From contig WTHD01000502.1 in assembly GCA_011523265.1 (NCBI GenBank), positions 1-33,817 of the forward strand: 33,817 nt of DNA. Direction: 5' to 3'. This stretch comes from Candidatus Binatota bacterium (GTDB lineage: Bacteria; Desulfobacterota; Binatia; Bin18). Shown here in pieces: positions 5,088 to 32,966 of the stretch. The notes beneath the pieces are model-generated. The model worked only from the letters and a program-made list of their open reading frames with translations, was not told the DNA's origin and did not search any database. How positions within the stretch are numbered: the stretch's first letter is position 1; each line of letters starts with the position of its first letter. The position numbers were made by a program, and so were the translations under genes.

Positions 5088-5158
5088 ATGTAGACTCAGC
5101 CCTTCACCCGCATCCCATCAAGAAGACGCTCCAAACTTGCCCCCATTTCTTTGCGCGC
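5032..5158. repeat. 127-bp exact direct repeat, copy A
   Basis: This stretch is base-for-base identical to 5643-5769, an offset of 611 bp. It covers the start of TetR copy 1, the whole 8-bp spacer and the 3' end of TetR copy 2. It shows that the array arose by unit duplication including the intergenic spacer. Confidence 0.93.
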
Positions 5159-5698: not shown

Positions 5699-5769
5699 AT
5701 GTAGACTCAGCCCTTCACCCGCATCCCATCAAGAAGACGCTCCAAACTTGCCCCCATTTCTTTGCGCGC
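5643..5769. repeat. 127-bp exact direct repeat, copy B
   Basis: Identical to 5032-5158. It covers the start of TetR copy 2, the 8-bp spacer and the 3' end of TetR copy 3. Exact identity alongside diverged flanks implies recent duplication or gene conversion. It also creates a substrate for deletion or expansion of the array. Confidence 0.93.
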
Positions 5770-13656: not shown

Positions 13657-13768
13657 ATATTTCCTCCTGTGCTGATTTCTCTCCGATTCTTCCTCCCGGC
13701 TCAACCCGAAGGCCGAACCGACGGCTTCTTATCAAGCGGCCTACCGGACGTAAAGAGCCGAACATCCT

Positions 13769-15101: not shown

Positions 15102-15536
15102 CTATGCGAGTTGGCCTATCTGCCGCAGTACCGCCGCGTGGTCCCAGTAAATGCGTTCCGCGGACATCTTCCCCTCACGGAACTCAATGATAATGACTAA
15201 TTCCGCCGTGACGGTCTTGCCGGTCGGAGGAATCCCAGGCAGAAACCAATCCATCTGCTTCGAATGGACCATATGGACTGTGGCTTCCTCGACAATACAG
15301 TCTTCGGTTACCACGCGGTTCGTCATGACATGTTCCCACTCATCGGGAATCGAGGGAATGAACATGTCCCGATAATAGGTGCGAAGTTCGGCCTTGCCCT
15401 TTCCGCCAGAGCGCGTCGGCATGTGCATGACCGATGCATCCTCCACCATGGTCGAAAGCGAAAGCTCTTCGTCTTTTTCGACAAACTCGCCTATAACATG
15501 CTCTTCCCAGAGTTTGACCAGGTCTTCGGCAGCCAT
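15102..15536 (-). CDS. SnoaL-like / NTF2-fold protein
   Basis: 144 residues from the ATG at 15534-15536, with AAGGGAG 8 nt upstream. A GTG at 15564-15566 in the same frame would add ten Lys/Arg-rich residues and bury that SD. The fold is visible from the first helix EDLVKLWEEHVIGEFVEKD, then SVMHMPTRSGGKGKAELRTY, ATVHMVHSKQMDWFLPGIPP, TVTAELVIIIEFREGKMSAE and the closing RIYWDHAAVLRQIGQL. This C-terminal pattern matches SnoaL-like ester-cyclase and hydroxylase-type proteins rather than ketosteroid isomerase. It is only 33 bp after the preceding oxidoreductase and is the second NTF2-fold protein in the window. A role in processing the oxidoreductase product is inference. Confidence 0.82.
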   Translation of the reverse strand: MAAEDLVKLWEEHVIGEFVEKDEELSLSTMVEDASVMHMPTRSGGKGKAELRTYYRDMFIPSIPDEWEHVMTNRVVTEDCIVEEATVHMVHSKQMDWFLPGIPPTGKTVTAELVIIIEFREGKMSAERIYWDHAAVLRQIGQLA

Positions 15537-15569
15537 CTCGGCGTCTCCCTTTTTCCGGCTCTCCACACG

Positions 15570-16616: not shown

Positions 16617-16656
16617 CTCCTCATTCCTCCAGCTTGAAGCGGGTCGTACTCTCCCC

Positions 16657-18402: not shown

Positions 18403-18420
18403 TCCATGCCCCTTCCGCAC

Positions 18421-18464
18421 TGTGCCAATTTTCACGGGGGAAGTTTCCCCCGAGCCCCCTCGGA
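18421..18464. repeat. 44-bp palindrome-containing repeat, copy 1 (hyuA/hyuB junction)
   Basis: Matches 20564-20607 at 40 of 44 positions. It contains the perfect inverted repeat CGGGGGAA (18435-18442) / TTCCCCCG (18445-18452) and a CCCCCTCGGA tail. It encodes the last residues and stop of hyuA and lies just upstream of the hyuB start. It resembles a REP-type element. Confidence 0.85.
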
Positions 18465-20561
18465 TGTCCGCCCGCCCAAGCCTGCGAGGATTTCATCAAG
18501 CGGTCGCTCAGCCGGGTGCATGACATAATTACGGTAGGCGTCACAGACCAAACGATAGCTGGGCGGAACAAGGACTGTGGTGTTGGCCTGTTCGATCAAC
18601 GCCGGTCCGCTCAGAGCCATGCCACAGTCGAACTGGTCCCCATTATAGACAGCAACCTGATATGGCGTCCCGGAGAAGTACGCCCGCCGCTTGCCTTTGA
18701 GCGCGACGGCCGGGTCTGCGGCCACAAACGGACTTGGCGTGAGTCGCGGTTTCTCCGTGAGCCCTAGCGCCTTGACCCGCAGATTGATCATTTCCAACGG
18801 AGCTTCCGGCATGGCATACCCATAGAGCGTCTCGTGGAGGCGATGAAAACGTGCGGCGACTGCCGCCAACTCAGATTCCGAAAGAGGAGGATGAACCGGG
18901 ACTTCGACTTCGTGAAATTGGCCAATATAACGCACATCGAACGTTGTGTGGATTTGTATTTTCTCGGCGGGGATGCCTTCTGATGACAACGTTACTCGCG
19001 CCTGCTCTTCAATCTCCCCCAGGGTACGGTTGATATCGTCGGGAACGATGGCGTCCCAGTCTCGGGTGAACGTCTGAACGTAGTCGTGCTGCAAATCAGA
19101 GATCAGCATGCCGGCCGCACAGAATACCGACGACTCCTGGGGAATCACGGTCAGCAGGATATCCAATTCTCGGGCTATCATTCCGGCGTGCAGCGGCCCT
19201 GCTCCACCGGCAACCACAAGCGCAAACTCGCGTGGATCATAGCCCCGTTCGATCGAAACACCCTGAAGCGCGGCCGCCATATTGGCATTCACAATGCGAT
19301 AGATACCCTCGGCAGCCTCAGTAGGAGAGAGGCCCAAGGGCTCAGCGATCTTGTTTGTCACCGCGCGCTGAGCCCCGTGATAATCAAGAGGCATCTCCCC
19401 GCCTAATAGACCGCCTGAGGAAAGATAGCCAAGAACCAAGTTGGCATCTGTCACCGTGGGTTCGACCCCGCCACGGCCGTAACATACCGGACCTGGCTCG
19501 GCTCCGGCACTCTTGGGCCCGACCTGGAGGATCCCCCCGGCATCAATCCAGGCAATACTGCCCCCGCCAGCGCCAACCGTGTGGATGTCCAGCAAGGGCA
19601 GAGCGAGCCGGTGGCCACCAATCTCGCCTTCTGTTGTTGTCACGGGCTGACGGTCGTGGATGAGACAGGCATCAAAACTGGTCCCGCCCATGTCAACCGT
19701 AATCACGTCACACAGGGCATAAGTGTCAGCATAGAACACTCCGGCCATGGGCCCGCCCGCCGGGCCGGATAAGAGGGTATTCGCGGCAAAGCGCCGAGTC
19801 AGGTGGGGCGACATCACCCCACCGTTCGACTGCATAATAAGCAAGACGCCAGCAAAGCCCGATGCGTCCAACTGGCTTTCAAGCTGAGTCAGATAGCGCG
19901 ACAGCGGAGGACCGACCGTGGCATTGAGGACGGTGGTGGAATGTCGCTCATAGGCCCGGATTTGCGGCAACACCTCGGAGGATAAGGACACATATACATC
20001 GGGTAAGGCATCCTGGATGAGTTGACCGGTTCGTCGTTCATGGGCCGGATTTAAGAAGGACCACAGATAGCTGATCGCCACCGCCTCAATGGCATGCGCC
20101 CGGATGTGTGCAATCGCGTCCATCACATCCGCTTCGTGCAGGGGAGTCACCACTGCGCCCTCAACATTGACCCGTTCACGAATAGGATAAATATGCGCCC
20201 GAGGAACCAAAGGCGGCGGCGGACCGTATTTGCTATCGTACTGACGGTCGCGTAGCCCACGCCGCATATTGAGCACATCACGAAAGCCACGGGTCGTCAG
20301 AAAGGCGGCTTTGGCTCCTTCCCCGGTCAAGACGGCATTGGTCGTAATGGTCGTCCCATGAACAATGACGCTGACTCGACCGAGGAAATCCGACAGCTCA
20401 CGATCAAAAGAAGCAGCGATCTTTCGCAGTCCCTGCAAGACACTGACCGCGGGCTGCGACGGCGTGGTCGGCGTCTTATAGACTTGAGCCGCGCCCTGCG
20501 AGTCAGTGACAAGAAAGTCGGTAAACGTGCCACCGACGTCAATACCGATTTTGTACTTCAT
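18432..20561 (-). CDS. hyuA: hydantoinase A / oxoprolinase family protein
   Basis: 709 residues, the usual length for the family. It begins with the ASKHA-type phosphate loop KIGIDVGGTFTDFLV (residues 4-18). RVSVIVHGTTITTNAVLTGE and the second ATP-binding motif VDMGGTSFDACLI follow, then HTVGAGGGSIAWID, and FALVVAGGAGPLHAGMIARE near residue 450. This subunit binds ATP and activates the cyclic amide or ketone for the partner subunit. The ATG at 20559-20561 overlaps the DUF35 stop by 4 nt (ATGA). No close SD is visible because the palindromic repeat occupies the upstream stretch, so translation by reinitiation is likely. Its own last codons are contributed by a second copy of the repeat, read in another frame. 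Confidence 0.95.
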   Translation of the reverse strand: MKYKIGIDVGGTFTDFLVTDSQGAAQVYKTPTTPSQPAVSVLQGLRKIAASFDRELSDFLGRVSVIVHGTTITTNAVLTGEGAKAAFLTTRGFRDVLNMRRGLRDRQYDSKYGPPPPLVPRAHIYPIRERVNVEGAVVTPLHEADVMDAIAHIRAHAIEAVAISYLWSFLNPAHERRTGQLIQDALPDVYVSLSSEVLPQIRAYERHSTTVLNATVGPPLSRYLTQLESQLDASGFAGVLLIMQSNGGVMSPHLTRRFAANTLLSGPAGGPMAGVFYADTYALCDVITVDMGGTSFDACLIHDRQPVTTTEGEIGGHRLALPLLDIHTVGAGGGSIAWIDAGGILQVGPKSAGAEPGPVCYGRGGVEPTVTDANLVLGYLSSGGLLGGEMPLDYHGAQRAVTNKIAEPLGLSPTEAAEGIYRIVNANMAAALQGVSIERGYDPREFALVVAGGAGPLHAGMIARELDILLTVIPQESSVFCAAGMLISDLQHDYVQTFTRDWDAIVPDDINRTLGEIEEQARVTLSSEGIPAEKIQIHTTFDVRYIGQFHEVEVPVHPPLSESELAAVAARFHRLHETLYGYAMPEAPLEMINLRVKALGLTEKPRLTPSPFVAADPAVALKGKRRAYFSGTPYQVAVYNGDQFDCGMALSGPALIEQANTTVLVPPSYRLVCDAYRNYVMHPAERPLDEILAGLGGRTSEGARGKLPP

Positions 20562-21034
20562 GCTGTGACAATTTTCACGGGGGAAGTCTCCCCCGCACCC
20601 CCTCGGACCAGGGTAAATGTCGGCACATAGCGCTCAATGCCCTCAGGGTCCTGTCCGACCGCGGACGGCAAGAGACGTACAGTACGCCCCCGCTCAACCT
20701 GGTTGGGCTCTGTTTCAACCAGTCGGGTGAAGATCCTCAGCCCTTCGACGCGGACCACAGCGAAAATCAATGGACGCGGAAAGCCCGGAGGGACGCCGGT
20801 ATCTTGAATGGTATAGGCGTGGATCGTCCCCCGGCTCGAGAGCTCAATCCAGTCGAGTTGGTCTGAGAGACACTCCGGACAGACTACACGCGGCGGCCAG
20901 TGGCACAGGGCGCACTGTGGACAGAATGTGGTGAGCAGCTTTTGCGACCGCAGGGCCTCATAAAACGGAGCCAGTCGAGTATTCTGACTGCCCTGAAGCG
21001 GAAAGGGGTCAATGGCGCGGAAATATTCGCTCAT
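20558..21034 (-). CDS. Zn-ribbon domain-containing OB-fold protein (DUF35)
   Basis: 158 residues. An N-terminal helix precedes a zinc ribbon with Cys38, Cys41, Cys52 and Cys55 (CPQC...CPEC). An OB-fold follows with the family pattern RGTIHAYTIQDTGVPPGF and PLIFAVVRVEGLRIFTRLVE. DUF35 proteins are obligate partners of thiolase-superfamily enzymes: ChsH2 with the aldolase Ltp2, and archaeal acetoacetyl-CoA thiolase with HMG-CoA synthase. The gene is 6 bp downstream of the thiolase here, which supports that pairing. The C-terminal tail (GGAGETSPVKIVTA) is encoded by the palindromic repeat and is probably not part of the domain. Confidence 0.93.
   Translation of the reverse strand: MSEYFRAIDPFPLQGSQNTRLAPFYEALRSQKLLTTFCPQCALCHWPPRVVCPECLSDQLDWIELSSRGTIHAYTIQDTGVPPGFPRPLIFAVVRVEGLRIFTRLVETEPNQVERGRTVRLLPSAVGQDPEGIERYVPTFTLVRGGAGETSPVKIVTA
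20564..20607. repeat. 44-bp palindrome-containing repeat, copy 2 (DUF35/hyuA junction)
   Basis: Second copy of the element at 18421-18464, with four mismatches. The inverted repeat is CGGGGGA (20578-20584), loop AGTC, TCCCCCG (20589-20595). It encodes the C-terminal tail of the DUF35 protein and ends 3 bp upstream of the hyuA start codon, placing a hairpin where an SD would be expected. Confidence 0.85.
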
Positions 21035-21040
21035 AGGCAG

Positions 21041-22204
21041 CTACTCCCGCCCATAAATCATGACCACATGCTCACCCATCCCACTATTATTATGCGTCAG
21101 TCCGATATGCGCCTCCGGAACCTGCCGTTCGCCTGCTTCCCCGCACAGTTGCCAAAAGGCTTCGACCGCCTGAGCCACACCTGTAGCCCCAAGCGGGTGG
21201 CCGCAGCCCATCAGCCCGCCGCGAGGATTGACAACCACGTCCCCACCGTAATCGGACCGCCCCTCCATAACAAACGGACCACCTTCACCCTTCGGACAGA
21301 ATCCAAGCTCTTCATAGGCAATAATCTCAGCGATGGCAAAACAGTCGTGGACCTCGGCAAAATCCACAGCGCTCGCCTGTATCCCGGCCATAGCGTAGGC
21401 GTCCCCGGCGGCCTGTTTCATGGCCGGCCAACTGGCATAATCGGGGTCGAGGCTGGAGACCGAAAACCCATGGACGGCCTGCCCGGTTCCATGAATAAAG
21501 ACCGGCTTGTCCGTTATCTCTTTGGCCCGCTCTTCGCTCGCCAGGATAACGGCAGCCGCACCATCCGTGATAGGAGAACACATAAACAGCCGCAGCGGGG
21601 AGGCGATCATGCGCGAGCACACGACCGCATCCAAGGTAACGCCATTCTGAAAATGGGCGTACGGATTTTTGCTTGAATGCGTATGATTTTTCACCGCCAC
21701 ATGGGCAAGCTGCTCCTCTGTGGTGCCGTATTCGGCCATATGCAGTTGGGCGGCCAGGGCAAAGGAAGGCGGAGCAGTGAGTCCAAAACAGGCCTCCCAG
21801 TCTCGGTCTACCCCGGTCCCCATATTCAGTACGGCCTCACCCATATTGGGGAGATTGAGCTTCTCGACCCCCAGCACCATGACGACATCGGCCAGACCGG
21901 CGGCAATAAATGCGTAGGCATAGCGTATCCCCGCAGTACCACTGGCACACATATGTTCGGTCCGGGCCGAGAGCTTGTTAGGCTGAATGCCCAGCGTTTC
22001 CGCGGCAAGCGGAGCAATATGACTTTGAAAGGCCGCCCGTTCGGGCAGGACGGCACCGACGACCAACCCTTCGATGTCCTTGGGAGTCAAGTGCGGAACA
22101 GAAGTAAAGCAGGCCCGGCCGGCCTCGGCAAGCAGTTCCCGAAAGCCGGCGGCGCGCACCCCAAAGCGTGACAGTCCCGCCCCAACCAGGGCAACCCGAC
22201 GCAT
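21041..22204 (-). CDS. thiolase-family protein (SCP-x / lipid-transfer-protein type)
   Basis: 387 residues from the ATG at 22202-22204, with AAAGGAG 6 nt upstream; an in-frame TTG lies two codons earlier. The nucleophile Cys86 is in EHMCASGTAGIRYA. The VHDCFAIAE motif and His336 in GLMGCGHPLGATG are both typical of SCP2-thiolases. The classical C-terminal CxGGG cysteine is replaced by NNSGMGEHVV, as expected in Ltp/SCP-x relatives. Reactions include thiolytic or retro-aldol cleavage of beta-keto- or beta-hydroxyacyl-CoA, often from sterol side chains. A DUF35 partner follows 6 bp downstream. It heads the ten-gene minus-strand run and has an 85-bp spacer upstream. Confidence 0.94.
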   Translation of the reverse strand: MRRVALVGAGLSRFGVRAAGFRELLAEAGRACFTSVPHLTPKDIEGLVVGAVLPERAAFQSHIAPLAAETLGIQPNKLSARTEHMCASGTAGIRYAYAFIAAGLADVVMVLGVEKLNLPNMGEAVLNMGTGVDRDWEACFGLTAPPSFALAAQLHMAEYGTTEEQLAHVAVKNHTHSSKNPYAHFQNGVTLDAVVCSRMIASPLRLFMCSPITDGAAAVILASEERAKEITDKPVFIHGTGQAVHGFSVSSLDPDYASWPAMKQAAGDAYAMAGIQASAVDFAEVHDCFAIAEIIAYEELGFCPKGEGGPFVMEGRSDYGGDVVVNPRGGLMGCGHPLGATGVAQAVEAFWQLCGEAGERQVPEAHIGLTHNNSGMGEHVVMIYGRE

Positions 22205-22289
22205 ACACAACTCCTTTGTGTCCGAGACAATCCTACCTAATCAAGAATCCTGTTTGCTGAAAAGGCGGTGCTTCTCTCCGGGGGAGGTC

Positions 22290-24182
22290 TTACTCTTGAG
22301 GAGGAGCCGCTTGCAGAGCTCTCAAACGGTCGCGTGTCTGTTGGGCCGCGTCCGTCTTCCCGGTCTTTTCATACAGCCGAACGAGTTGTTCAAGCGTCTC
22401 GCGGATCACTGGGCTGTCCGCGGGCAGGGCTTCCTCTTGGATGTGGACCGCTCGCTCCGTGAGCAACACCGCCTCTTCATTTTTTCCCTGCTCTGCATGG
22501 AACATCGCCTGGGTTCGGAGATTCAGCGCAACGTTCGGATGGTCTGCACCAAGCGACGCCTCCATAGCTGAAGCGGCCTGCTCGTATAGGGGTAAGAATG
22601 TCGTATAATCCTTGGTGTCCTGGAGGAGGTCAGCGATGCCGCTCAGGGTCGTGGCCAGATTATTCAGACTGACCGCAATATCACGCTGCCCAGGTTCCAA
22701 CGCTTTGGTCTCAACCGCCAGAGCTTCTTCATAATACTGCTGAGAGGCGGCAAGGTCCCCGGCATCTTTCAGGAACAGCGCAAACTGATTCAGGCTCGTA
22801 GCAATATTCGGGTGATCCTCACCCAGCGCGGTCTTCATCACCCGCACGGATCGTTCGAACAGCGGACGGGCGGTCTCAAAGTTACCATTCTGATGGTGCA
22901 GAGAAGCCAGGTTATTCAGACTGACCGCCACATTGGGATGGGCCTGGCCATAGGCCGTCTCGGTAATCTGAAGCGCGCGCTCGTACAAGGGCAACGGACG
23001 GACGCTATCCCCCCCCTCGCGCAGGGCTAAGGCCATATTGTTCAGATTCATCGCCACAACAGGGTGGTCCTTGCCCAGCGCTTGTTCGTTGATCGCAATG
23101 ACGCGCTCATAGACCTGTGCGGCCTCAGCATAGTTCCGGACCTGGTACAACAGAGACGCCAGGTTGTTCAGGCTGGTGCCTACGTCTGGATGCGTCGAAC
23201 CATAGGCAGCGGCATATATCTCGGCAGCCCGCTCAAACATGGGTCTTGCTTTGGCGAATTCTCCTATTTGATATAACGCCGATCCGAGATTGTTGAGGCT
23301 CGCAGCCACATCGGGATGTGACGGGCCTAGTGCCGTCTCTCGGATTTCGAGTGCGCGTTGCTGTATTTCTCCTGCCTCGGGGTAATTGCCCATTTCCTTC
23401 ATGAGCAGCCCCAACCGGGTCAGGTCGTCGGCAACAACAGGATGCTGAGCGCCGTGCGTGCGCTCATGAATGGAAAGCGCACTCTGGAGTAAGGTTCGGG
23501 CGCCGTTATACTGCTTGGTCGCAATCAACAGCTCGCCCAGATTAATCATACTCAGCGCAACAGCCGGATGTTCGTTCCCGAGCTGCTGTTGATGGATCGT
23601 CAACGCCCGTTCAAAAAGCGGACGGGCCTGCTCGTACTGTTTTTGCTCCTTGTACAGCATGGCCAGGTTGCCGACACTCACGGCAACCGCGGCATGCGAC
23701 TGCCCATAGGCGGCCTCTGTAATGCTCAGGGCCCGCTCGAACAGCGGACGAGCAGCATCGAACTGCTGCTGATCCTGGAGCACCAGGGCGAGATTGGTCA
23801 GACTGCGGATAATACCGGGATGGTTGTTCCCAAGCGCCTTCTCGTCAATGCCCAGCGCTCGTTCGAAGAGCTGACGAGCTTCCGTGTATTGACGGGTCTG
23901 CTGGAGAAGGAGGGCGAGGTTATTGAGGCTTTGAGAGACGAGCGGATGGTCGGGGCCGGCGATCTTTTCCGTTTGCCCAAGCAGTTCGCGCGCAACGGGA
24001 ATGGCAGCTTGAAATTTTCCAGCCGCGTGCAAGCGCCCGGCCTCTTCGGCTAATTGCTTGAGGCGGGTACCCGGCGCCTCGTCCGCCCCAGAAGCAAACG
24101 GCGCCAAACTGAAGACAGCAAAGGCAGCAACGACGCTGAGGATTCGTCTTGGACTATTCACTACAAGTGAGAGCCGAGACAT
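22290..24182 (-). CDS. exported tetratricopeptide (kinesin-light-chain-type TPR) protein
   Basis: 630 residues from the ATG at 24180-24182. An in-frame TTG eight codons earlier is possible, and no clear SD supports either. A signal peptide is visible (MSRLSLVVNSPRRILSVVAA, cleavage near ASGADE), so it should be periplasmic or surface-linked. About thirteen 42-residue TPR_10/12-type repeats follow. Each begins with a G-x-x-HP motif (DHPLVSQSLNNLALL, NNHPGIIRSLTNLALV, PSHPDVAASLNNLGSAL and so on) and ends in PLFERAL or a variant. Repeat 11 is degenerate (PGQRDI), with an insertion just after it. TPR solenoids scaffold protein complexes. It is the last gene of the envelope cluster, 30 bp after the small exported protein, and may organise that machinery. 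Confidence 0.94.
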   Translation of the reverse strand: MSRLSLVVNSPRRILSVVAAFAVFSLAPFASGADEAPGTRLKQLAEEAGRLHAAGKFQAAIPVARELLGQTEKIAGPDHPLVSQSLNNLALLLQQTRQYTEARQLFERALGIDEKALGNNHPGIIRSLTNLALVLQDQQQFDAARPLFERALSITEAAYGQSHAAVAVSVGNLAMLYKEQKQYEQARPLFERALTIHQQQLGNEHPAVALSMINLGELLIATKQYNGARTLLQSALSIHERTHGAQHPVVADDLTRLGLLMKEMGNYPEAGEIQQRALEIRETALGPSHPDVAASLNNLGSALYQIGEFAKARPMFERAAEIYAAAYGSTHPDVGTSLNNLASLLYQVRNYAEAAQVYERVIAINEQALGKDHPVVAMNLNNMALALREGGDSVRPLPLYERALQITETAYGQAHPNVAVSLNNLASLHHQNGNFETARPLFERSVRVMKTALGEDHPNIATSLNQFALFLKDAGDLAASQQYYEEALAVETKALEPGQRDIAVSLNNLATTLSGIADLLQDTKDYTTFLPLYEQAASAMEASLGADHPNVALNLRTQAMFHAEQGKNEEAVLLTERAVHIQEEALPADSPVIRETLEQLVRLYEKTGKTDAAQQTRDRLRALQAAPPQE

Positions 24183-24212
24183 GAGGAAGGGTTCATAACC
24201 CTGCAAGACAGA

Positions 24213-24704
24213 CTATTCCGTCTGCGTCGCCTGATCAGGAGGTACAGAAATGACGTCTTCGGATGGCTTATGAAAGGTTTCCGCCACGTCAAAAGAGCCG
24301 CGCAACGAATAGACGTCATCCTTAAACATGGGGAGGTGAGAATAGTAGGCACGGTGGTAATAGCAGCCCAGACCCTCACCCGGAGCAGCGGTCTCCTCCT
24401 CGATGCTAGCGTCGGGAACCGCAACGCTTCCACTCTCTGTCGAAGGAGGTGTCTCGACTGAAGCAATGTCGTGTTGCGTGGCCTGTTCAGCCTGACCTTT
24501 TTCAGTCAGCGTGCGAGCATCACTCTTCTGGGTTGGGGTCGACGGTTGGTGAGACGGGTTTTCAAATTTATCCAGCCAGCCGTAATACGCGGTGGCTTTG
24601 GGTGCAGTTGGCTGCGGCTCTCCTTCTGCCCGGAGGTCACCGGCGACACACAGAACGCCAAGGCTCACGACGATAGTCAGGATGCTTTTCATGCTGAAGC
24701 CCAT
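24213..24704 (-). CDS. small exported protein with a DUF1329-like motif
   Basis: 163 residues from the ATG at 24702-24704; ATG 24690-24692, four codons later, is equally possible. A signal peptide is visible (MKSILTIVVSLGVLCVAG, cleavage near LRAEGE). The middle (about 35-105) is low-complexity and rich in Gln, Glu, Thr, Ser and Pro, probably disordered. Near the C-terminus, residues 111-127 (GLGCYYHRAYYSHLPMF) match residues 216-232 of the adjacent DUF1329 protein (SLGTFYHKAYHSQMAMF) at 9 of 17 positions, with conservative changes elsewhere. I do not recognise a named family. It sits between the DUF1329 and TPR genes on the same strand and probably works with them. Confidence 0.75.
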   Translation of the reverse strand: MGFSMKSILTIVVSLGVLCVAGDLRAEGEPQPTAPKATAYYGWLDKFENPSHQPSTPTQKSDARTLTEKGQAEQATQHDIASVETPPSTESGSVAVPDASIEEETAAPGEGLGCYYHRAYYSHLPMFKDDVYSLRGSFDVAETFHKPSEDVISVPPDQATQTE

Positions 24705-24731
24705 GCTCTCACCGTTCGTAACCCGAAAGGA

Positions 24732-24761
24732 CAAGGGGGAGCAGATATCTGCTCCCCCTTG
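24732..24761. other. 30-bp perfect palindrome downstream of the DUF1329 gene
   Basis: Every base from C24732 to G24761 is matched by its complement around the central GATATC-containing axis; each arm carries a GGGGGAGC / GCTCCCCC block. It lies 20 nt past the DUF1329 stop and 27 nt before the next start. No T-run follows on either strand. Likely roles are an intercistronic mRNA-stabilising or attenuating hairpin, or a protein-binding site. Confidence 0.85.
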
Positions 24762-24781
24762 GAGATGTCTTCTGAGGCTGT

Positions 24782-26224
24782 TTAGCGGTGCAGCTCAGTC
24801 AGACGGTTAAGGTCGTACAGGCCATTAATGTAGTCCATCGAAAAGTCAGGCAGACCGCCGGCGTATTCGCGCCACAGATTGCCGCGACCGTTCTGGATGT
24901 CGACCGTGTCTACGTTCCGCCAGTGAATCGCGCCACGATTGGCGTTCATGTACGTGTACTTCTTGGAATCGTCAGACCACTGGTAGCCCCACTGCCACAA
25001 CTTCCACAGCTTCCCTTTACGGTCGAAAGCGATGTGGTTCCAGGTCTCCCAGGTTTGCGGGTCGATCGCCATGATCGCGCTCTTGTACGGATGGCGCGGG
25101 TCTTTCGGAATCCGCTCGACCACGAACAGCTCGCGGACCTGCCAGATGTCGTCGTTGAGCCAGCCGTCGGGCCCGCCGTAGCGCACGCCGTCGTCTTCCC
25201 ATTTGGTCAGGGCGTGCACGGTCAGGAACTTCTTGGGACCCCAGAACACCCAGTCCCACTCGAGCGGACGGCCTGAGAAGCCGTAGAAGTCTTCCAGGGT
25301 ATGCTCGGTGCCCATCAGCGAGTCAGACTTCACCTCGGCCGAAATACGCCGTACGCGCCGCAGGCTCGGAACGTAGGCCCAGCCGTCATCGGTCCGGCGC
25401 GGGTCAATATAGCGCTGGATGATGAACGCAGTACCCCGCACATCGTACGGCTCGAAGAAGCCGGTGAACTCCTTCCAGTGCACGGTCCCGGCGTCATCGT
25501 TTTCGGGCAGGTTGTAGTTGTTTTCCGGAAACATGGCCATCTGGGAGTGATAGGCCTTGTGATAGAAGGTTCCCAAGCTGCGCTCGTAGGTGCCGCCGCC
25601 GCCGTAGATCTTCTCGTAATCGTAGTCCCAGTCCGTGTCGATATCGATTTCACCACCAATCCAGGCATCGGGTGGTTTCGTCGGCTCTGGAGTCTCGTGC
25701 TCACCGCCGAACCTCAGCCACGTGCTCAGCGCGTTGGCGACGAAGTAGCCGCGCCAGTAAAAGCGCTTGTCGTAGTTCCAGGCCACCTTGAGGCCGGCGA
25801 CGCTCATGTCCGTCTCGGTCTTGATATCGTCGTTCGAAAACGGATAGCCGCAGATGTAGTTCTCGAGCGCGCCGTCCGCGGCCAGCGAGACCTGCTTCTG
25901 GAACTTCTCGTCGCAGTCCCGCACGACCTGGTGTACTGTCACGTTATAGGTTTCGGCTATCTCCATTTGCAGCGTACCGTCGTTCCACTTCTCGAACTGC
26001 TCGAAATAGCCGGGGAACATGAACGGTCTTACCTTAGGCAGGTCGGCGTGCGTCAGCACGTCGCCGGCCTTAAATTCCGGCTCGGCGTCTTTGGTCTCGT
26101 TGAACCATTGCTCGAATGTATCGCGCGTGTACGTGGTCGCGTCGCCGCCCTGCGCCAGTACGCTGGTCTGCGCCCACAACAGGCTGCAGGCCGCGAGAAA
26201 CGAAAACACTATAAGTCGTTTCAT
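24782..26224 (-). CDS. DUF1329 family protein (LolA-like, periplasmic)
   Basis: 480 residues. An N-terminal signal peptide (MKRLIVFSFLAACSLLWAQT, cleavage after SVLA) predicts export. A LAAC lipobox-like string occurs but lies too early in the hydrophobic core to be convincing. Family features: AGDVLTHADLPKVRPFMFPG near the N-terminus, GWAYVPSLRRVRRIS, DFYGFSGRPLEWDWVFWGPK, YKSAIMAIDPQTWETWNHIA and KLWKLWQWGYQW. DUF1329 proteins have a LolA/LppX-like fold and co-occur with DUF1302, an MMPL/RND transporter and a YCF48 protein, as here. Their substrate is unsettled; lipid or hydrophobic-compound carriage is the favoured guess. GAGGAGG lies 5 nt before the ATG, and a candidate promoter is at 26257-26285. 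Confidence 0.94.
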   Translation of the reverse strand: MKRLIVFSFLAACSLLWAQTSVLAQGGDATTYTRDTFEQWFNETKDAEPEFKAGDVLTHADLPKVRPFMFPGYFEQFEKWNDGTLQMEIAETYNVTVHQVVRDCDEKFQKQVSLAADGALENYICGYPFSNDDIKTETDMSVAGLKVAWNYDKRFYWRGYFVANALSTWLRFGGEHETPEPTKPPDAWIGGEIDIDTDWDYDYEKIYGGGGTYERSLGTFYHKAYHSQMAMFPENNYNLPENDDAGTVHWKEFTGFFEPYDVRGTAFIIQRYIDPRRTDDGWAYVPSLRRVRRISAEVKSDSLMGTEHTLEDFYGFSGRPLEWDWVFWGPKKFLTVHALTKWEDDGVRYGGPDGWLNDDIWQVRELFVVERIPKDPRHPYKSAIMAIDPQTWETWNHIAFDRKGKLWKLWQWGYQWSDDSKKYTYMNANRGAIHWRNVDTVDIQNGRGNLWREYAGGLPDFSMDYINGLYDLNRLTELHR

Positions 26225-26256
26225 AAATCCTCCTCATTAAGAAAATTTACCGCTTT

Positions 26257-26285
26257 ATTTTTAGTTGACTTTTTTAGGAAGTCAA
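26257..26285 (-). promoter_or_regulatory. candidate promoter/operator of the DUF1329 gene
   Basis: On the minus strand TTGACT (26285-26280) is followed by a 16-17-bp spacer and TAAAAA/AAAAAT (about 26263-26257). The -35 box is one arm of the inverted repeat TTGACTT / AAGTCAA (26265-26271 and 26279-26285, 7-nt loop), so a regulator could overlap it. This would give DUF1329 expression separate from DUF1302. Confidence 0.45.
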
Positions 26286-26356
26286 TAATTCTTCAGCAGG
26301 TATTTTTATACTGTTGGCATCAATGGGGGCGATGCGTACACCACCCCCTACACACC

Positions 26357-28549
26357 CTAGAACCGATAGCGCAGGCGACCCCAGAACTCGTTCATCTGGT
26401 TCCGCTCCGAGCCACCGGCCTGCATGTGGAACAGGCCGAAGCCAGCTTCCGAATATGGTCCCTGACAAGAGCCTGGACCACTAAGGCCACCGTAGCACGT
26501 GCCATCGTTGAACACCGCGAACGAGCCAAGGTCGTGACGATGCCGTGCGCCTAGGAATGCGGTGAAACCGAGCGTCACCGACCAGTTGTTGGTGATCAGA
26601 TACTCGATATTCCCGCCGGTCGTGCCGTCCTGGGCTGCGGTGCCGAACGCACCAAAGACCAGGTAGACCAACTGGTCGCGCATAAAGTGGTTCTGCGCGA
26701 ACACGGTGAAGATGAAGTTATTGTTCTCACTCACGATACCACGGCGGCCAGCCCGCGAGCCGGGATAGTGGGTGCCGTACGCCTGGGCGCTCAGGAAGAA
26801 GCTCCGTGTTGGATTGAGCCAGCGGATTAAGGTCGGTCGGTCGATCCCCAGGACCCACTTGAATGCGTTACCGTCCCCGACCAGATCAATCTTGGCGGTG
26901 TCGTTCAGCATCACGTTGGTGCTCCAGGACGATTCCCAGCGGACCACAAAGCCGGTGTATGGCTCGAACCAGTCGAGCGACAGGCCCAGCGTGTTCGTCT
27001 TGCGATATCTGGCAGACAGCGAGCCACCGAGGCCGCACAGGTTCGCATATTTGGCATGGCGGTTTTTCGCCTTGGTGCCGTATCCCGCCTGACCTTCTTT
27101 GAAGACGCCTGCTTCGCGTATCTGAATCTGCTTCGGCTTGACGCCGGTTACTACTGGACCAAAGGCTGAATTAACAAGCGTGCCACCGTCCTTGTGAAAT
27201 GACTTGGGGTCTGCGCCGGCCAATTGTTCCGCCGTGATCGGCGCGTCATTCCGGTCAGCAGGCAGAATACTGTTCCCATTTCCGTCCGTCGTACAGCCCG
27301 GAGTGTTAAGGATGTTAAGGCGGTCCCATCCGGTCACCGGCAAGTCGGGAAAGGCGAAATAGTCGGTGACCTGGATACGCAGGTTGCCGACAGTGGCTTC
27401 CCAGCGCATGCCGACACCACCGTTCTTCAGGTTCCAGTGCGGGGCGCGGTTCTTGTACAGCGCCATGTTCTTGAACGGCACATACGGCCGGTCCGCGGTT
27501 GCCCCGGAGTAGTGGTCGGCCATATTCGGGAAAACAACCGACGAAAACAGGTCGTTCCCGAACACGAACCCGTCGATCGTTCGGCCGAAGCCCGTGGCCC
27601 ACGGCTGGGCCGGGTGGCCGAGACCGGTCGGCGTGTGGCGGTCGAAAACGTAGACCACACTACCGGCCACGTCGCGCAGAAAGCCGATGTTGCCGAAGCG
27701 ATGCTCAAACAGAGCCGACCACAGCGGCACGCGCGTATCGTCGAACAGGTCAATGAAGAAGTGGTCGCCGAAGTTGACCGGATTGACGATGTCTTGCAGG
27801 CGGAAGAAGTCGGCCTTCCCCCACACATGCTGCTGCTTTCCGATACGCAGCCAGTTGCGACCGCCTAATCCCCTCCAGAAGAGGTCCAAATACGCCTCGC
27901 GGACGGGATAGTACAGGTCCATATTGGTCTCGCGCAGCATCCCGAAGCGCAGGTCATTCTGGCTGGCGTCCAAGCCGTAATACCCTCGGCTCCGCGAATC
28001 CACATCGCGACCGGGCACGCCGTACGTCGAGCCGGGTGTCAAGGTGTGCAAGAACTCAATATTTCCACCGCCGGTCGCGTTCGGTTCCTTCGGCCAGAAC
28101 CCACCATAGTTGCGGGGGGCGAGTCCGTGGCCTTCAAGAAGAGCCACATTGTTCGGACTGGGCTTACCAGAGCGCCCGGAGGGCTTACCATTTCGACCGT
28201 TTCCGAACCTGTGACTTATGTCGTAGATCGACTCGTACTCGGGCCGCAACTCGATGAAATACTCGAAGCGCTGGAAGTAGTCCTGCATGACGTACAGGGG
28301 GCCGGCCAACTGCACGCTGGCCCGGTAGCGGGACGACGCGACATGATAGTCGTCTTTAAAGTTATCGCTCCGTAGAATGGAGAAATTATCCACATAACCG
28401 TGGATCGCCATTCTCTCGAAACTATCCATAAATCCTCTATCTTTGCGCCCAGCCGCATCCGCCGATGGAATGGCGAGCGCCATACTCAGGCCAATGGCTG
28501 TTATACCCAGCCAGAGACCGGTCAGCTTCCCTCTCCCTGCTCGTTTCAT
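26357..28549 (-). CDS. DUF1302 family outer-membrane beta-barrel protein
   Basis: 730 residues from the ATG at 28547-28549, with GGAGG 7 nt upstream. A signal peptide is visible (MKRAGRGKLTGLWLGITAIG, cleavage near SADAAG). The family block LRIGKQQHVWGKADFFRLQD, followed by IVNPVNFGDHFF, matches the DUF1302 pattern Q-x-V-x-WG...D-x-x-NP. The sequence is rich in alternating polar/aromatic strands and ends FWGRLRYRF, with a C-terminal Phe like the BAM recognition signal. A porin-like barrel in the outer membrane is therefore likely. It is the third gene after the YCF48 and RND genes and precedes DUF1329, the conserved cassette order. Substrate unknown; a hydrophobic ligand is inferred from the RND partner. 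Confidence 0.92.
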   Translation of the reverse strand: MKRAGRGKLTGLWLGITAIGLSMALAIPSADAAGRKDRGFMDSFERMAIHGYVDNFSILRSDNFKDDYHVASSRYRASVQLAGPLYVMQDYFQRFEYFIELRPEYESIYDISHRFGNGRNGKPSGRSGKPSPNNVALLEGHGLAPRNYGGFWPKEPNATGGGNIEFLHTLTPGSTYGVPGRDVDSRSRGYYGLDASQNDLRFGMLRETNMDLYYPVREAYLDLFWRGLGGRNWLRIGKQQHVWGKADFFRLQDIVNPVNFGDHFFIDLFDDTRVPLWSALFEHRFGNIGFLRDVAGSVVYVFDRHTPTGLGHPAQPWATGFGRTIDGFVFGNDLFSSVVFPNMADHYSGATADRPYVPFKNMALYKNRAPHWNLKNGGVGMRWEATVGNLRIQVTDYFAFPDLPVTGWDRLNILNTPGCTTDGNGNSILPADRNDAPITAEQLAGADPKSFHKDGGTLVNSAFGPVVTGVKPKQIQIREAGVFKEGQAGYGTKAKNRHAKYANLCGLGGSLSARYRKTNTLGLSLDWFEPYTGFVVRWESSWSTNVMLNDTAKIDLVGDGNAFKWVLGIDRPTLIRWLNPTRSFFLSAQAYGTHYPGSRAGRRGIVSENNNFIFTVFAQNHFMRDQLVYLVFGAFGTAAQDGTTGGNIEYLITNNWSVTLGFTAFLGARHRHDLGSFAVFNDGTCYGGLSGPGSCQGPYSEAGFGLFHMQAGGSERNQMNEFWGRLRYRF

Positions 28550-28568
28550 AACGAGGCCTCCTTCCTTG

Positions 28569-28588
28569 CCCTTCGCCCTCACGAAGGG
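28569..28588 (-). other. intercistronic hairpin upstream of the DUF1302 SD
   Basis: CCCTTCG (28569-28575), 6-nt loop, CGAAGGG (28582-28588): a perfect 7-bp stem in the 98-bp spacer between the RND and DUF1302 genes. It ends about 8 nt before the SD of DUF1302 on the minus strand and lacks a T-run. It may stabilise or tune translation of the downstream cistron. Confidence 0.45.
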
Positions 28589-28647
28589 AAAATCTTTGAC
28601 TACCCCCCCAGGCGGGGCATTCGTTACAACAATCCCCCAAATTTTTA

Positions 28648-31071
28648 TCAGCTCGATGGTTGCGGACTCGGCTCCGCCATCATCGGCTGCTCTTCCTCAA
28701 CCTGCACCGGCTCCCCAACCACAAACCTTGGCTTCACAATCGCAATCATGGCCGGGATCATGGTCAGCGCCGACAACCAGTGTGTCACCAGCAGAATGGC
28801 CAAGAGTAAGGCCATCTCCGCGGAGAAACGCAAACTCGACATAAAATACCACGGAATCACACCGGCAATCATCGTCGTGGCGGTAAAGGTCACCGCCATA
28901 CCCGTTGTTGACACCGTTTTTTTGATTCCGGCAACCAAATCGCCTCCTGCCCGCGGGACTTCGAGTCGAATCCGGTCAACGACGTATAAGATGTAGTCCA
29001 CCCCAATGCCCATCCCCACCGCGGTCACTGGCAGCGAGTTGATATTAATCCCGATGCCCATAAAGGAGACGTACATATAGCTGGCCACCCCCGCGGCAAC
29101 CAGCGCGAGCATCACCAGGGTCGCCGCAATGATGGAACCGTAACTCAAAAGGACCAGGGTGTAAACCGTCGCAATGACGAGCATGGCGGCCTGCTTCTCG
29201 GAGCGATCAATCTCCTCATTCAGGGCCGCCGTCGTTCCGATAAATCCGCCGGCCAAGCGCAGACTCACCGCCTCAATCGGATGCTCAGCCATGAATTTCT
29301 TCGCCCGGGCGATCGCCTCACGGACGGTGTCGCCTTTCACATCCTTGTAAAACACGACAAACTGGCCGTTCTGGTAGACCATATCGGTGTACTCGAGAAT
29401 AACCCCCGATATGGGAGCCGAGGCTTCATACACAAAAATCAAATTCCCAGTGATGGATCTATCAGGCGGAATGACCTGCCAGCGTGGATCGCCATAATGA
29501 TAGCGGCGGTTCAAATTACGCGCCAAAGTGTACAGCTCGCGCGTGTCCCCTGCCTCAACCTGCTCCAACAAATAGCGGCGCATCTCCTCAAGCGTATCGA
29601 GCACGTGCGGCTCCTTGAGGATGTGCTCACGCTCGCCTTCCAGGTAGATCACCAGTTGGTTGGCCCCGGCGAATCGCTCGTTAATCGTCCGGGCGGACAC
29701 ATTATAGTGGGCATCCTGCCACAGCAGCGGAGAGCCGGCTTCCTGCTCGCCAATCGGTACGGTGATCGCGGTCCGCACGCCAAAGAAGATGGTTATCGCG
29801 GCGGCGACCATAATCACCCAGCGGCTGGTCCGCCCGGTGGCGATATTGCCGACTGTAATCAACGTGACCTCCATCCAACGCGGAATAAAATGTTCCGTTT
29901 GCTTTGGCCTCGGGAAATATGACAGCAGGATGGGCATGGTATGCGTAATGCAGAAGATATTGGCAAAGGCCCAGAAACTCCCGTAGTAGGCAAGCTTCTC
30001 GATCAGCGGGATGGTGGCCACGGACAGGACGAGAATCCCACCGGAATCGCTGATGACACCCGTCACGCCCGGCAGGAATAAATCGCTCAAGCAAGTAAAG
30101 GCCGCTTTCTCCTGGTCTTGCGAGACCTCGAGTTCTTCGAAATAGCGCTCAATCATCTGCACTGCGTGGCTGACCGAGCGCGCCGTGATCAGCAGCGGAA
30201 TCACCAGGATGAGCGGATCAAGGTTAAAACCCCACCAGCCGACCCAGCCCAGGCCCCATACGGTCTGGATCGCTGCGCCAATCAACGGGACGAGCACCCC
30301 GTAGGCTCGCCGAAAATAGATAATCAGCGCAAGAAAGACCATTATTCCGGTGAAGGTGAAGATCAAGAACAGCTCGCCGGTGAAAAACCAGACCCAGCCT
30401 TTGAGCGCCGGCTCGCCAGCGACGTACACTTTTGTGTTGTCGTCTTCTATTTCACTCCGGATGCGCGTGATCTCGCGTTGAATCTCCCGGTAATCCAGCC
30501 GGTCTTCGTTAAATCCGGCAAGAACGAGCGCGGCTTTACCATCCTCCGAGACGTATTTGTTCATAACGATATCGTTATTGAACATCTCGAATTTCAGCGC
30601 GCTGAGCTCATTGGGATCATCCGGTACATCAACGGGAAGCACCGGGTACGAACGCACCATACCGCCCGGCAAGGTCTTGATATTGCGGATTTTGACGTGG
30701 GAGAGCGAAGCCACCTGGTTATGGTCCACACCGGTAATCTGGTCGAGTTGGTCCGTGAGGTAACGAACCTTTTCCAGACTTTCTTTGGTGAAAATATCCC
30801 CTTCCTCTACCTGGAGGACCGCCGTCACAATATTGGCCCCACCAAAGGTCGTCCGATGCTGGTTATAGGCTTGGATGTAGTCGTGGCCTTGGGGCAGGAG
30901 GTCGGCGAACTGGCTGTACATTTCGACCTTACGGGCTTGATAGCCCCAGAGGACCGTCGCGATCGCCAAAGCGACCATATACGCAAGACGGTGGCGCCAG
31001 AGAACTGCCAGATAGGCTTCAATGATACGGTCGGCGGTGCCTTTTTTGTGACCTGGGGGGGTATGGGCCAT
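28648..31071 (-). CDS. MMPL/RND family transporter (HAE3-like)
   Basis: 807 residues, the size of HAE3/MMPL exporters, with the duplicated one-plus-five membrane-helix layout. TM1 is LAYMVALAIATVLWGYQA near residue 31, and a periplasmic domain follows (about 50-210). A helix bundle then starts at LFLIFTFTGIMVFLALIIYF, a second periplasmic domain follows (about 430-610), and a second bundle includes MLVIATVYTLVLLSYGSI and GMGIGVDYILYVVDRI. The Asp in GVDY is the usual proton-relay position. RSVSHAVQMIERYFEE is a typical HAE3 loop. Relatives export hopanoids (HpnN) or mycobacterial lipids (MmpL). AAGGAGG lies directly before the ATG. It is the energised inner-membrane part of the cassette. Confidence 0.95.
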   Translation of the reverse strand: MAHTPPGHKKGTADRIIEAYLAVLWRHRLAYMVALAIATVLWGYQARKVEMYSQFADLLPQGHDYIQAYNQHRTTFGGANIVTAVLQVEEGDIFTKESLEKVRYLTDQLDQITGVDHNQVASLSHVKIRNIKTLPGGMVRSYPVLPVDVPDDPNELSALKFEMFNNDIVMNKYVSEDGKAALVLAGFNEDRLDYREIQREITRIRSEIEDDNTKVYVAGEPALKGWVWFFTGELFLIFTFTGIMVFLALIIYFRRAYGVLVPLIGAAIQTVWGLGWVGWWGFNLDPLILVIPLLITARSVSHAVQMIERYFEELEVSQDQEKAAFTCLSDLFLPGVTGVISDSGGILVLSVATIPLIEKLAYYGSFWAFANIFCITHTMPILLSYFPRPKQTEHFIPRWMEVTLITVGNIATGRTSRWVIMVAAAITIFFGVRTAITVPIGEQEAGSPLLWQDAHYNVSARTINERFAGANQLVIYLEGEREHILKEPHVLDTLEEMRRYLLEQVEAGDTRELYTLARNLNRRYHYGDPRWQVIPPDRSITGNLIFVYEASAPISGVILEYTDMVYQNGQFVVFYKDVKGDTVREAIARAKKFMAEHPIEAVSLRLAGGFIGTTAALNEEIDRSEKQAAMLVIATVYTLVLLSYGSIIAATLVMLALVAAGVASYMYVSFMGIGININSLPVTAVGMGIGVDYILYVVDRIRLEVPRAGGDLVAGIKKTVSTTGMAVTFTATTMIAGVIPWYFMSSLRFSAEMALLLAILLVTHWLSALTMIPAMIAIVKPRFVVGEPVQVEEEQPMMAEPSPQPSS

Positions 31072-31135
31072 CTTATTCCTCCTTACGCGAGCAGGAGCGT
31101 AGTAGTGTGTGAGTAATATGTTCTGTTTAGAGATA

Positions 31136-31149
31136 TGTCAGTCATGACA
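31136..31149. promoter_or_regulatory. small palindromic site upstream of the RND gene
   Basis: TGTCA (31136-31140), GTCA, TGACA (31145-31149) form a short inverted repeat in the 97-bp spacer between the YCF48 and RND genes. Its TGTC/GACA half-sites resemble those in the operator-like repeat at 32488-32499. Possible binding site of the same regulator; weak evidence. Confidence 0.25.
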
Positions 31150-31168
31150 GCGCCGTTGAGCGAATGCG

Positions 31169-32404
31169 TTAGAGAGACGGGTTCGCGGCATACAGCTTTG
31201 CCTTGTCCGCGGTAGTCCAGCTCTTGCCACTATCGGTAGTGACCAGGACCGTGCCCTTCCCTCCGCACGCAACGCCAAACTGCCCATCAGGAGCAAAAGA
31301 CGCCGTGCGGATCCACGTCAGCACATCCTGGCGGATATTCTCGTCAAGTTGCCATGCGTCACCTGTGGCTGAAGCAAGCGTGCCGAGCACACCTGTGGCA
31401 AAGTCACTACGGTTGTTATCCGGAGCGGCGGTGACGGACAAGAGCGTATTAAAGCTCCCACTGGGAATGTTTGTCCACGTTTCCCCCGCATCTGTCGTTT
31501 GTAACAACGTGCCACTCTCCCCGGTGACATACCCCTCCTGGGCACTACGAAAATCCACATCAATCAGGAAAAGGTCTTCAATATAGAGAGGGGGAATACG
31601 CTGTCGGATCGCTTCCTCTTCAGGGAGTTCCGGGCGAGTATATTTCGGCAGGTTGTGCACATCGCGTTGCCGCTGCCAGGTGACGCCACCATCCTGGGTG
31701 CGCAAGATAATCCCAAATTCGCCCGCGACCCACCCGTCCGTATTCGTGGGGAAGGACACCCCGTTCAGCGTCACATCGCACGGATTCAGCCGCAGGGTTG
31801 ACTCAGGATCATCCGCGGGGTCCGACGTTGCAAAATTATCGAAGCTCATATCGCACCACAGCGAGAGATTCTCCCAAGTCTCTCCACCGTCTTGTGAACG
31901 GATAATGGCGCCCACCGGACCGACGGCCCATATATGTTGGGCGTCCGCACCACGGCTGACCGCAAAATAGTGGGGCTGGGCTACCTGCCAGTCCAGCAGC
32001 GGTAATTCGATAGGAATGCGAGTCCAGGTCTGTCCGCCGTCGCCGGTCTTGAGGACTATGCCATCCTGCCCAACGGCCACCCCGTCCTCGGCGGTCGCAA
32101 AATCAACCTCATAGATTGCCTTTTGGACCCCGGTCTCCAGCATGGCAAAATCCTGCCCGTTATTGGTCACGTGCAGGATAAGCCCCCGTCCGCCAGAGAC
32201 CCATGCATTGTTCGCGTCAAGAACAAAGGCATCATAGTAGTCTTCACGGTCGGGAAACACATTCCCCCTGGACGCTCCCATTTCGTTGAGTTCGCGCAGT
32301 ACCTCTTCGTCGGCTGCTTCAATACAAGCTGACAGCGTAAAGAGGGCGGCGACCAGAACGCTCCAAGCCGTGTGACGCCCCACCAAACGTATTTGTCTTT
32401 TCAA
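31169..32404 (-). CDS. YCF48-type beta-propeller lipoprotein (BNR/Asp-box repeats)
   Basis: 411 residues. The start is TTG at 32402-32404 (SD AAGGAG 8 nt upstream). The signal sequence that follows ends in a lipobox, LSAC, with Cys27, so the protein is probably a lipoprotein. At least five Asp-box repeats are seen: VLKTGDGGQTWTRI, IIRSQDGGETWENL, ILRTQDGGVTWQRQ, LLQTTDAGETWTNI and VLVTTDSGKSWTTA, each preceded by a G-x-x-G hairpin. This is the YCF48 / photosystem II assembly factor (HCF136) fold, a seven-bladed propeller. In non-photosynthetic bacteria it recurs with DUF1329, DUF1302 and MMPL genes. It heads the cassette behind a promoter with a perfect -35 box (32473-32501). Its role is probably binding or assembly. 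Confidence 0.93.
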   Translation of the reverse strand: MKRQIRLVGRHTAWSVLVAALFTLSACIEAADEEVLRELNEMGASRGNVFPDREDYYDAFVLDANNAWVSGGRGLILHVTNNGQDFAMLETGVQKAIYEVDFATAEDGVAVGQDGIVLKTGDGGQTWTRIPIELPLLDWQVAQPHYFAVSRGADAQHIWAVGPVGAIIRSQDGGETWENLSLWCDMSFDNFATSDPADDPESTLRLNPCDVTLNGVSFPTNTDGWVAGEFGIILRTQDGGVTWQRQRDVHNLPKYTRPELPEEEAIRQRIPPLYIEDLFLIDVDFRSAQEGYVTGESGTLLQTTDAGETWTNIPSGSFNTLLSVTAAPDNNRSDFATGVLGTLASATGDAWQLDENIRQDVLTWIRTASFAPDGQFGVACGGKGTVLVTTDSGKSWTTADKAKLYAANPSL

Positions 32405-32472
32405 GATACTCTCTCCTTAACTGATGCGGGGAACAGTGTTGTCGCTTGTAAGATTCCGAGGTTAGGTTCCCT

Positions 32473-32501
32473 TATCTATGAAGTACGGACAGAACTGTCA
32501 A
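32473..32501 (-). promoter_or_regulatory. candidate promoter with operator for the envelope cluster
   Basis: On the minus strand TTGACA (32501-32496) is a perfect -35 box, with a 17-bp spacer and TAGATA (32478-32473). It lies about 70 nt upstream of the YCF48 start. GACAG-AA-CTGTC (32488-32499) is an inverted repeat overlapping the -35 box, well placed for a repressor. Confidence 0.55.
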
Positions 32502-32549
32502 GTGACCCCCAAGAGCTACTTCACCAGCATAATTGAAGGCATTTCCGGT

Positions 32550-32966
32550 TCAATTTTGTTGTGTATACCGAATGGCCAAACCAACCAGTTGGAATTCGTA
32601 GTCTGACCGGCTGCGGTAGTCTCGGGCGGTACTCGCCCCGACGTGTGCCACCGTTATTTCGTCCTGGAATTCTCCGGCTTTCATCCGTTGCAGGACAATG
32701 GCCTCTGCCCCTATCGCACACGCCTCACGGTGCAGGGCAGTCTGCATGGCTTCCATGCCCGTACCTGGGTTACCGTAGGTTTTCACACGGGCGATCACCT
32801 CATGGGCTAGCGCGGGTGGAGAATCAAGAATAGGAATCTGACAATTTGTCGTCGTGAATTCGATAGGGAGCGCCCCCACCTGTTCGGTCAAAACCAGAGG
32901 TTTTGTCGGACGACTCACGCATCCGGTCAGAGCGCAGCCAACCAGAATCGTCAAAAAAATTCTCAA
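32550..32966 (-). CDS. small hypothetical lipoprotein
   Basis: 138 residues. The best start is TTG at 32964-32966, with a weak GGAAAAG upstream and no ATG nearby. The first residues, IFLTILVGCALTGC, form a short signal with lipobox LTGC and Cys16, so export and lipidation are well supported. The mature part has a compact alpha/beta look: ALAHEVIARVKTYGNPG, then REACAIGAEAIVLQRMKAGE, then a final strand FQLVGLAIRYT. The CxIGAEAIVL pattern is common in small envelope proteins of unknown function, and I cannot name the family. It is about 145 bp upstream of the YCF48 gene on the same strand. The promoter between them suggests separate expression. Confidence 0.75.
   Translation of the reverse strand: MRIFLTILVGCALTGCVSRPTKPLVLTEQVGALPIEFTTTNCQIPILDSPPALAHEVIARVKTYGNPGTGMEAMQTALHREACAIGAEAIVLQRMKAGEFQDEITVAHVGASTARDYRSRSDYEFQLVGLAIRYTQQN

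Follow-up and report, generated by a model that had tools for sequence, protein, structure and literature searches.

We propose that a block of seven minus-strand genes, at positions 22290-32966 of a 33,817-nucleotide stretch of DNA from a Candidatus Binatota bacterium (contig WTHD01000502.1 of assembly GCA_011523265.1; ‘the window’ hereafter denotes this whole stretch), is likely to encode an AmeABCD-type tetrapartite RND system that transports a hydrophobic compound and is embedded in a catabolic operon. What could be read from the sequence is the family identity of four core components, the membership of the pump in a defined clade, a gene order shared with a cultured degrader, and the co-inheritance of that clade with a hydrolase and a small conserved protein, g16. 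From these we infer both cargo and direction: most likely, what the system carries across the envelope is a hydrophobic compound, either a growth substrate or an intermediate. The host belongs to an uncultured, sponge-associated genus of the class Binatia, represented here by a 4.8 Mb metagenome-assembled genome (MAG) in 542 contigs; it appears to fall within the order named Bin18 by Murphy et al., which includes one genome from the sponge Aplysina aerophoba.

All seven open reading frames are present at the coordinates and on the strand given for them in an earlier, sequence-only reading of this DNA, and Pfam backs the families which that reading named for the core and for the TPR protein (TPR_12, DUF1329 with LolA_like, DUF1302, MMPL and YCF48/PSII_BNR). 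Several of the predicted starts are over-extended, with MSRLSL (TPR), MKRAG (DUF1302) and MKSIL (a small exported protein) as the probable true starts. The block is kept in all seven genomes of the genus, all of them sponge-associated MAGs, with the same order in the six others as far as their contigs reach and about 80-98% protein identity; such conservation shows that the block exceeds chance, and since two of the six are assembled as a single contig, the arrangement did not arise through misassembly of a fragmented MAG.

The four core genes, all on the minus strand, lie adjacent in one cassette, as in AmeABCD, and their order is conserved in the genus. They comprise a YCF48-type β-propeller lipoprotein resembling AmeC (31169..32404; PF14870, E 2.5e-29), with a lipobox (LSAC) that recurs among relatives from the same pump clade; an AmeD-like MMPL/RND pump (28648..31071; Pfam MMPL, E 8e-31; assigned to its clade by tree); DUF1302, a predicted outer-membrane β-barrel resembling AmeA and ending in Phe (26357..28582; PF06980, E 2.8e-9; ...LRYRF); and DUF1329, an AmeB-like, LolA-like periplasmic carrier (24782..26224; PF07044, E 8.5e-33; LolA_like, E 4.7e-18), the profile of which matches PDB entries 3bk5, 9tp6 and 4z48. 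AlphaFold2, supplied with the window sequence and fetched relatives only, returned models with a mean pLDDT (predicted local distance difference test) of 39.5 for DUF1302, a low-confidence model rich in long strands, and of 38.5 for DUF1329. Both families can be greatly expanded: genome G000 has 18 DUF1329 and nine DUF1302 matches, many of the DUF1329 genes standing alone with no pump nearby.

The pump matches the HAE3 model over its full length, with a score below the model cut-off. In a maximum-likelihood tree it falls within a 13-row clade (100/99), to which a Myxococcota pump is sister (100/99), and it groups with cassette-borne pumps; long branches make the placement of the plasmid-encoded pumps unsure. 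Its tenth transmembrane helix (TM10) retains the Asp-Tyr pair (GVDY), whilst TM4 carries ARxxSHxxQ in place of the usual Asp. This change is clade-wide, its SH..Q part is found also in the plasmid homologues, and it marks the pump lineage; it may mean that proton coupling falls to a single half of the pump.

The core had been described as recurring in diverse bacteria without a settled function, a statement that overlooks two bodies of experimental work. In Castellaniella defragrans, AmeABCD (DUF1302, DUF1329, COG4447/YCF48 and an HAE3 RND pump) is a tetrapartite RND system, deletion of which lowered monoterpene tolerance, impaired growth on non-functionalised monoterpenes and raised the accumulation of Nile Red, read by its authors as a sign of export (PMC6394551). 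The likeness to the window extends to all four families, their gathering in one cassette and their apparent setting within a catabolic gene island; the gene order, however, is circularly permuted with respect to the YCF48-RND-DUF1302-DUF1329 order seen here, the YCF48 protein of the window is a predicted lipoprotein, and the HEAT, TPR and small proteins, the lipoprotein and the hydrolase pair are not described for Ame (PMC6394551). In fitness screens of Pseudomonas putida, DUF1302 and DUF1329 genes were required for growth on Tween 20, their fitness correlating with that of a periplasmic protein and a pump (PP_0765, PP_0766, PP_2018 and PP_2019); DUF1302 was modelled as a barrel, and modelling suggests that DUF1329 touches both barrel and pump (PMC10866462). 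There, by contrast, the genes occupy two loci, and HEAT, TPR and small proteins are not reported (PMC10866462).

The gene order of the window recurs on plasmid 2 of Aromatoleum aromaticum EbN1 (NC_006824.1), where YCF48-MMPL-DUF1302-DUF1329-NTF2 is found with a thiolase and an OB-fold protein nearby, although its pump is only 35% identical, it sits among genes for β-oxidation of coenzyme A esters, and no TPR, HEAT or small protein is annotated. A Methylibium plasmid carries the cassette in permuted order beside an alkane monooxygenase and rubredoxins. Delftia DUF1302 and DUF1329 proteins occur in phenanthrene-induced vesicle structures and are encoded in a phenanthrene gene cluster (PMC3110197), a DUF1329-YCF48-MMPL cluster was highly expressed in a benzene-degrading consortium (PMC13101534), and in Thalassolituus a single MMPL-LolA-like protein was induced 42-fold on a C28 alkane (PMC6304351), a fusion that supports the coupling of pump and carrier.

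The RND lipid exporters HpnN and MmpL3 share the pump family, with weak profile and PDB matches, but are not reported with DUF1302, DUF1329 or YCF48 partners, and the window pump scores far below the family cut-offs (32 bits against 751.85 for the HpnN model). The analogy to Lpt or Mce systems drawn in the sequence-only reading holds only in the sense that each envelope layer receives a part; no Lpt or Mce family was matched by Pfam in the seven genes or the scanned neighbours, and the window would have RND in place of ABC energy and a carrier in place of a continuous bridge.

Co-occurrence was assessed across 148 Binatia genomes. Matches to the pump clade above 1000 bits occur in 13 of them, and G012 adds a partial match at the edge of a contig. 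Exactly those 14 genomes also have g16 matches above 200 bits, and hydrolase matches above 520 bits occur in the same 14 plus G008. The cut-offs were set after the score gaps had been seen (1010 to 787 bits for the pump, 206 to 133 for g16 and 524 to 355 for the hydrolase, with G008 standing above the last of these). Under independence, identical sets would arise with a chance of about 7e-20 by genome or about 7e-8 by genus, both values being far too small owing to relatedness; within one genus, G073 has pump, g16 and hydrolase and G049 none of the three. Most weaker g16 relatives adjoin a weaker hydrolase relative, such that the two look like a lasting pair. These weaker relatives are adjacent in many Binatia (for example G080:C33, G058:C86 and G009:C187), forming a broader uncharacterised pair, and some lie near MMPL genes (L175).

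In the window, g16 is a 145-residue conserved protein beside the hydrolase (13267..13704, minus strand) that tracks the pump clade and returned nothing meaningful in Pfam or PDB searches; a likeness to SCP2-type carriers was noted by eye only and is not claimed. The α/β hydrolase itself (12413..13255, minus strand; PF00561) has invariant GSSMGG and GHFPM motifs and shares 74-85% identity with its relatives in Myxococcota and other Binatia, as compared with 42-83% for the pump and 29-60% for DUF1302. The simplest reading of a hydrolase more conserved than the conduit parts is that its chemistry is fixed whilst the conduit drifts. A luciferase-like (LLM) oxidoreductase (11134..12348, minus strand; PF00296, E 1.5e-34) is linked to the pair, and likewise in L064, L104, L106, L107 and L170, though it is only 25-36% identical outside the family.

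An exported HEAT-repeat protein (13769..15031, minus strand; PF13646, E 1.3e-36; signal peptide) completes this set, its gene sitting inside the core operon in other Binatia families and in Myxococcota, where the protein has a lipobox-like N-terminus. Profile-based context tables give the order DUF1302-YCF48-MMPL-HEAT-DUF1329-LLM-g16-hydrolase in G017 and YCF48-MMPL-DUF1302-HEAT-DUF1329 in G073, G084 and G086. The Myxococcota locus L104 reads g16-hydrolase-LLM-YCF48-MMPL-DUF1302-HEAT, and locus L107 (UBA6930) reads g16-hydrolase-LLM-YCF48-MMPL up to the contig end; co-occurrence outside Binatia was seen at two loci. Co-inheritance of the pump clade with the g16-hydrolase pair across two phyla, as these distributions suggest, would be a new point.

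It follows that the block was drawn too narrowly when it was called a complete cassette ending at 22290, as the widely shared unit also contains the exported HEAT protein, g16, the hydrolase and usually the LLM oxidoreductase, all beyond that boundary. The next minus-strand gene, a thiolase, begins 79 bp downstream, and the co-directional run reaches 11134, comprising 17 genes with intergenic gaps of at most about 145 bp; after TPR come thiolase, DUF35, HyuA, HyuB, LLM, SnoaL, HEAT, g16, α/β hydrolase and a further LLM gene. Promoter and terminator scans of the run gave somewhat more sites than in shuffles, none clearly dividing it, and were not used. The 17-gene run recurs in G001, G004 and G006; relative to the window, G001 and G006 (L188 and L189) carry several kb of extra DNA, roughly 4.5-6.4 kb, between HyuB and LLM.

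The sister genus (G007) has the order YCF48-MMPL-DUF1302-DUF1329-small-TPR-SnoaL-g16-hydrolase-LLM, without the thiolase, DUF35 or Hyu genes at this place. The catabolic stretch of the window at 15570..22210 on the minus strand (thiolase, DUF35 OB-fold protein, HyuA, HyuB and LLM) has therefore either been inserted in this lineage or disappeared from the sister genus, and what lies beyond it belongs to an older unit; the SnoaL/NTF2-like gene of the same run (15102..15566, minus strand) adjoins TPR in the sister genus. DUF1329 genes, with or without MMPL-YCF48, repeatedly adjoin HyuA/HyuB pairs elsewhere (L071, L072, L078 and L092), as in the window. Further along, at 4482-6309, stand three tandem, closely similar genes for 200-residue TetR-type regulators. 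Other genomes of the genus have three to five copies in the corresponding position, which makes this a local expansion.

Three exported proteins extend the core within the block, and the suggestion that they belong with it was borne out in so far as each is linked to core genes elsewhere. The 138-residue lipoprotein (32550..32966, minus strand; lipobox LTGC) found nothing meaningful in Pfam or PDB searches, but has strong orthologues in ten of the Binatia genomes, spanning four genera, where its neighbours include YCF48-MMPL in G012, DUF1302 in G013 and DUF1329 in G009. No pump of this clade was found in G013 or G009, where the lipoprotein sits with outer-membrane-side parts, a hint that this is its own side of the envelope. 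The G003 copy (L060, 3086-3499) has one in-frame stop within the matched range. The exported TPR solenoid, of kinesin-light-chain type (22290..24206, minus strand; PF13424, E 6e-154), shares its distribution with the small exported protein: orthologues of both occur in an identical set of nine out of the 148 Binatia genomes, from two genera, and in no others; those of TPR are 56-94% identical and in the same place.

The small exported protein (24213..24734, minus strand) has no Pfam match and resembles a tandem DUF1329 copy that has been truncated, with one motif kept under selection. At its C-terminus, the block LGCYYHRAYYSHLPMF differs little from a DUF1329 segment (LGCFYHRAYYSHLPMF in G009, LGTFYHKAYHSQMAMF in the window); hhalign aligns the two proteins over 37 columns (probability 96.5, E 7e-10), and none of 1000 shuffles reached the similarity score, whether against the DUF1329 of the window, G007 or G009. 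The motif is near-invariant across the compared genomes, whilst the linker varies. In DUF1329 the shared segment lies just before the part that matches LolA-like structures (3bk5, 9tp6 and 4z48), a part which the small protein lacks; it is hence a fragment relative and not a member of the family. A shared DUF1329 N-terminus, when sought, was only suggestive against G009 (score 40 over a 40-residue block). We infer that the motif may touch some further component of the system and that this contact may be competed for, or bridged, by the small protein, which probably binds the partner of the DUF1329 motif, as a regulator or adaptor.

Taken together, these observations support a predicted part in each envelope layer and a conduit for hydrophobic compounds as the predicted function, both as first suggested from the sequence. 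We envisage that a proton-driven RND pump would remove its cargo, the hydrophobic growth substrate or intermediate, from either the inner membrane or the periplasm. The complex would be organised by YCF48, a lipid-anchored propeller, together with a helical solenoid that is exported; most lineages would use HEAT as this solenoid, the sister genus TPR only, and the window both. The sister genus gave no HEAT match at the threshold used, yet has TPR, so one solenoid may be able to replace the other. LolA-like DUF1329 would then ferry cargo across the periplasm to the DUF1302 barrel in the outer membrane, whilst the cytoplasmic hydrolase, g16 and LLM oxidoreductase would degrade the same compound; the conserved hydrolase pair, in other words, probably breaks down what is pumped. 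Characterised MMPL/RND pumps move cargo outward. For that reason, and on account of the AmeABCD deletion phenotype (PMC6394551), we lean slightly towards outward pumping, by which the membrane would be protected while the compound is consumed.

Several points weigh against this proposal. With the usual TM4 Asp absent, proton coupling of the pump is assumed; the tree was built without the AmeD sequence; both AlphaFold2 models were too poor for interface tests, that of DUF1329 too poor also to locate the shared motif, and were not used for a fold search; and in the f9 genomes the g16-hydrolase pair lies on a different stretch from the pump. The published cases also dispute direction, AmeABCD having been argued to act in efflux (PMC6394551) and the Tween 20 growth requirement fitting uptake as well (PMC10866462). 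On an import model, which we consider somewhat improbable, DUF1302 would admit a hydrophobic nutrient and DUF1329 carry it inward to feed the hydrolase and oxidoreductases, while pump, propeller and solenoid, at the inner membrane, would see to its delivery or remove side products. The P. putida requirement (PMC10866462) is joined here by the close linkage to catabolic enzymes in the window, Aromatoleum and Methylibium, and a hydrolase more conserved than the pump would be expected with a fixed substrate. The outward working of characterised pumps speaks against import, as does the raised dye accumulation of the AmeABCD mutant (PMC6394551).

Export of an endogenous lipid (a carotenoid, hopanoid or wax, for example) to the outer membrane in the manner of HpnN, with the neighbouring enzymes coincidental, seems to us very improbable. 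LolA-like carriers do move lipids and lipoproteins, matches to named RND models include those for HpnN and MmpL3, and among solved structures MmpL3 lies closest in sequence; yet the strict co-inheritance with a cytosolic hydrolase and g16, a run in which no lipid biosynthesis gene was recognised, and the catabolic context in cultured Aromatoleum and Methylibium all argue otherwise. It is also unlikely that the three added exported genes are mere passengers, TPR being unrelated and the small protein a decaying tandem duplicate. The limitation of TPR and the small protein to two sister genera would suit such a view, as would the position of the latter directly downstream of DUF1329, but a near-invariant motif beside a varying linker, TPR identity held in one place, and a lipoprotein linked to core genes in four genera do not.

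An AmeABCD-type system for a hydrophobic compound, our preferred interpretation, is of a kind already known from the literature; what is new is the co-inheritance of pump, hydrolase and g16 across two phyla, together with the truncated DUF1329 mimic. Tentatively, and with a good deal of doubt, we speculate that the pump clade may represent a substrate-dedicated transport-plus-catabolism unit common to Binatota and Myxococcota: an Ame-type RND conduit would be passed on together with one highly conserved hydrolase and g16 and, in two genera, be tuned by a secreted ‘decoy’ that bears the DUF1329 docking motif without the cargo domain. Cassettes of DUF1302, DUF1329 and YCF48-RND are common among degraders of oily compounds, their cargo and direction unsettled. 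With a single pump clade tied, in two phyla, to a particular and highly conserved pair of hydrolase and g16, the substrate of the hydrolase would point to the cargo; further envelope components, a HEAT or TPR solenoid and a lipoprotein, can now be named, and the truncated mimic of DUF1329 indicates where a docking surface is likely to lie.

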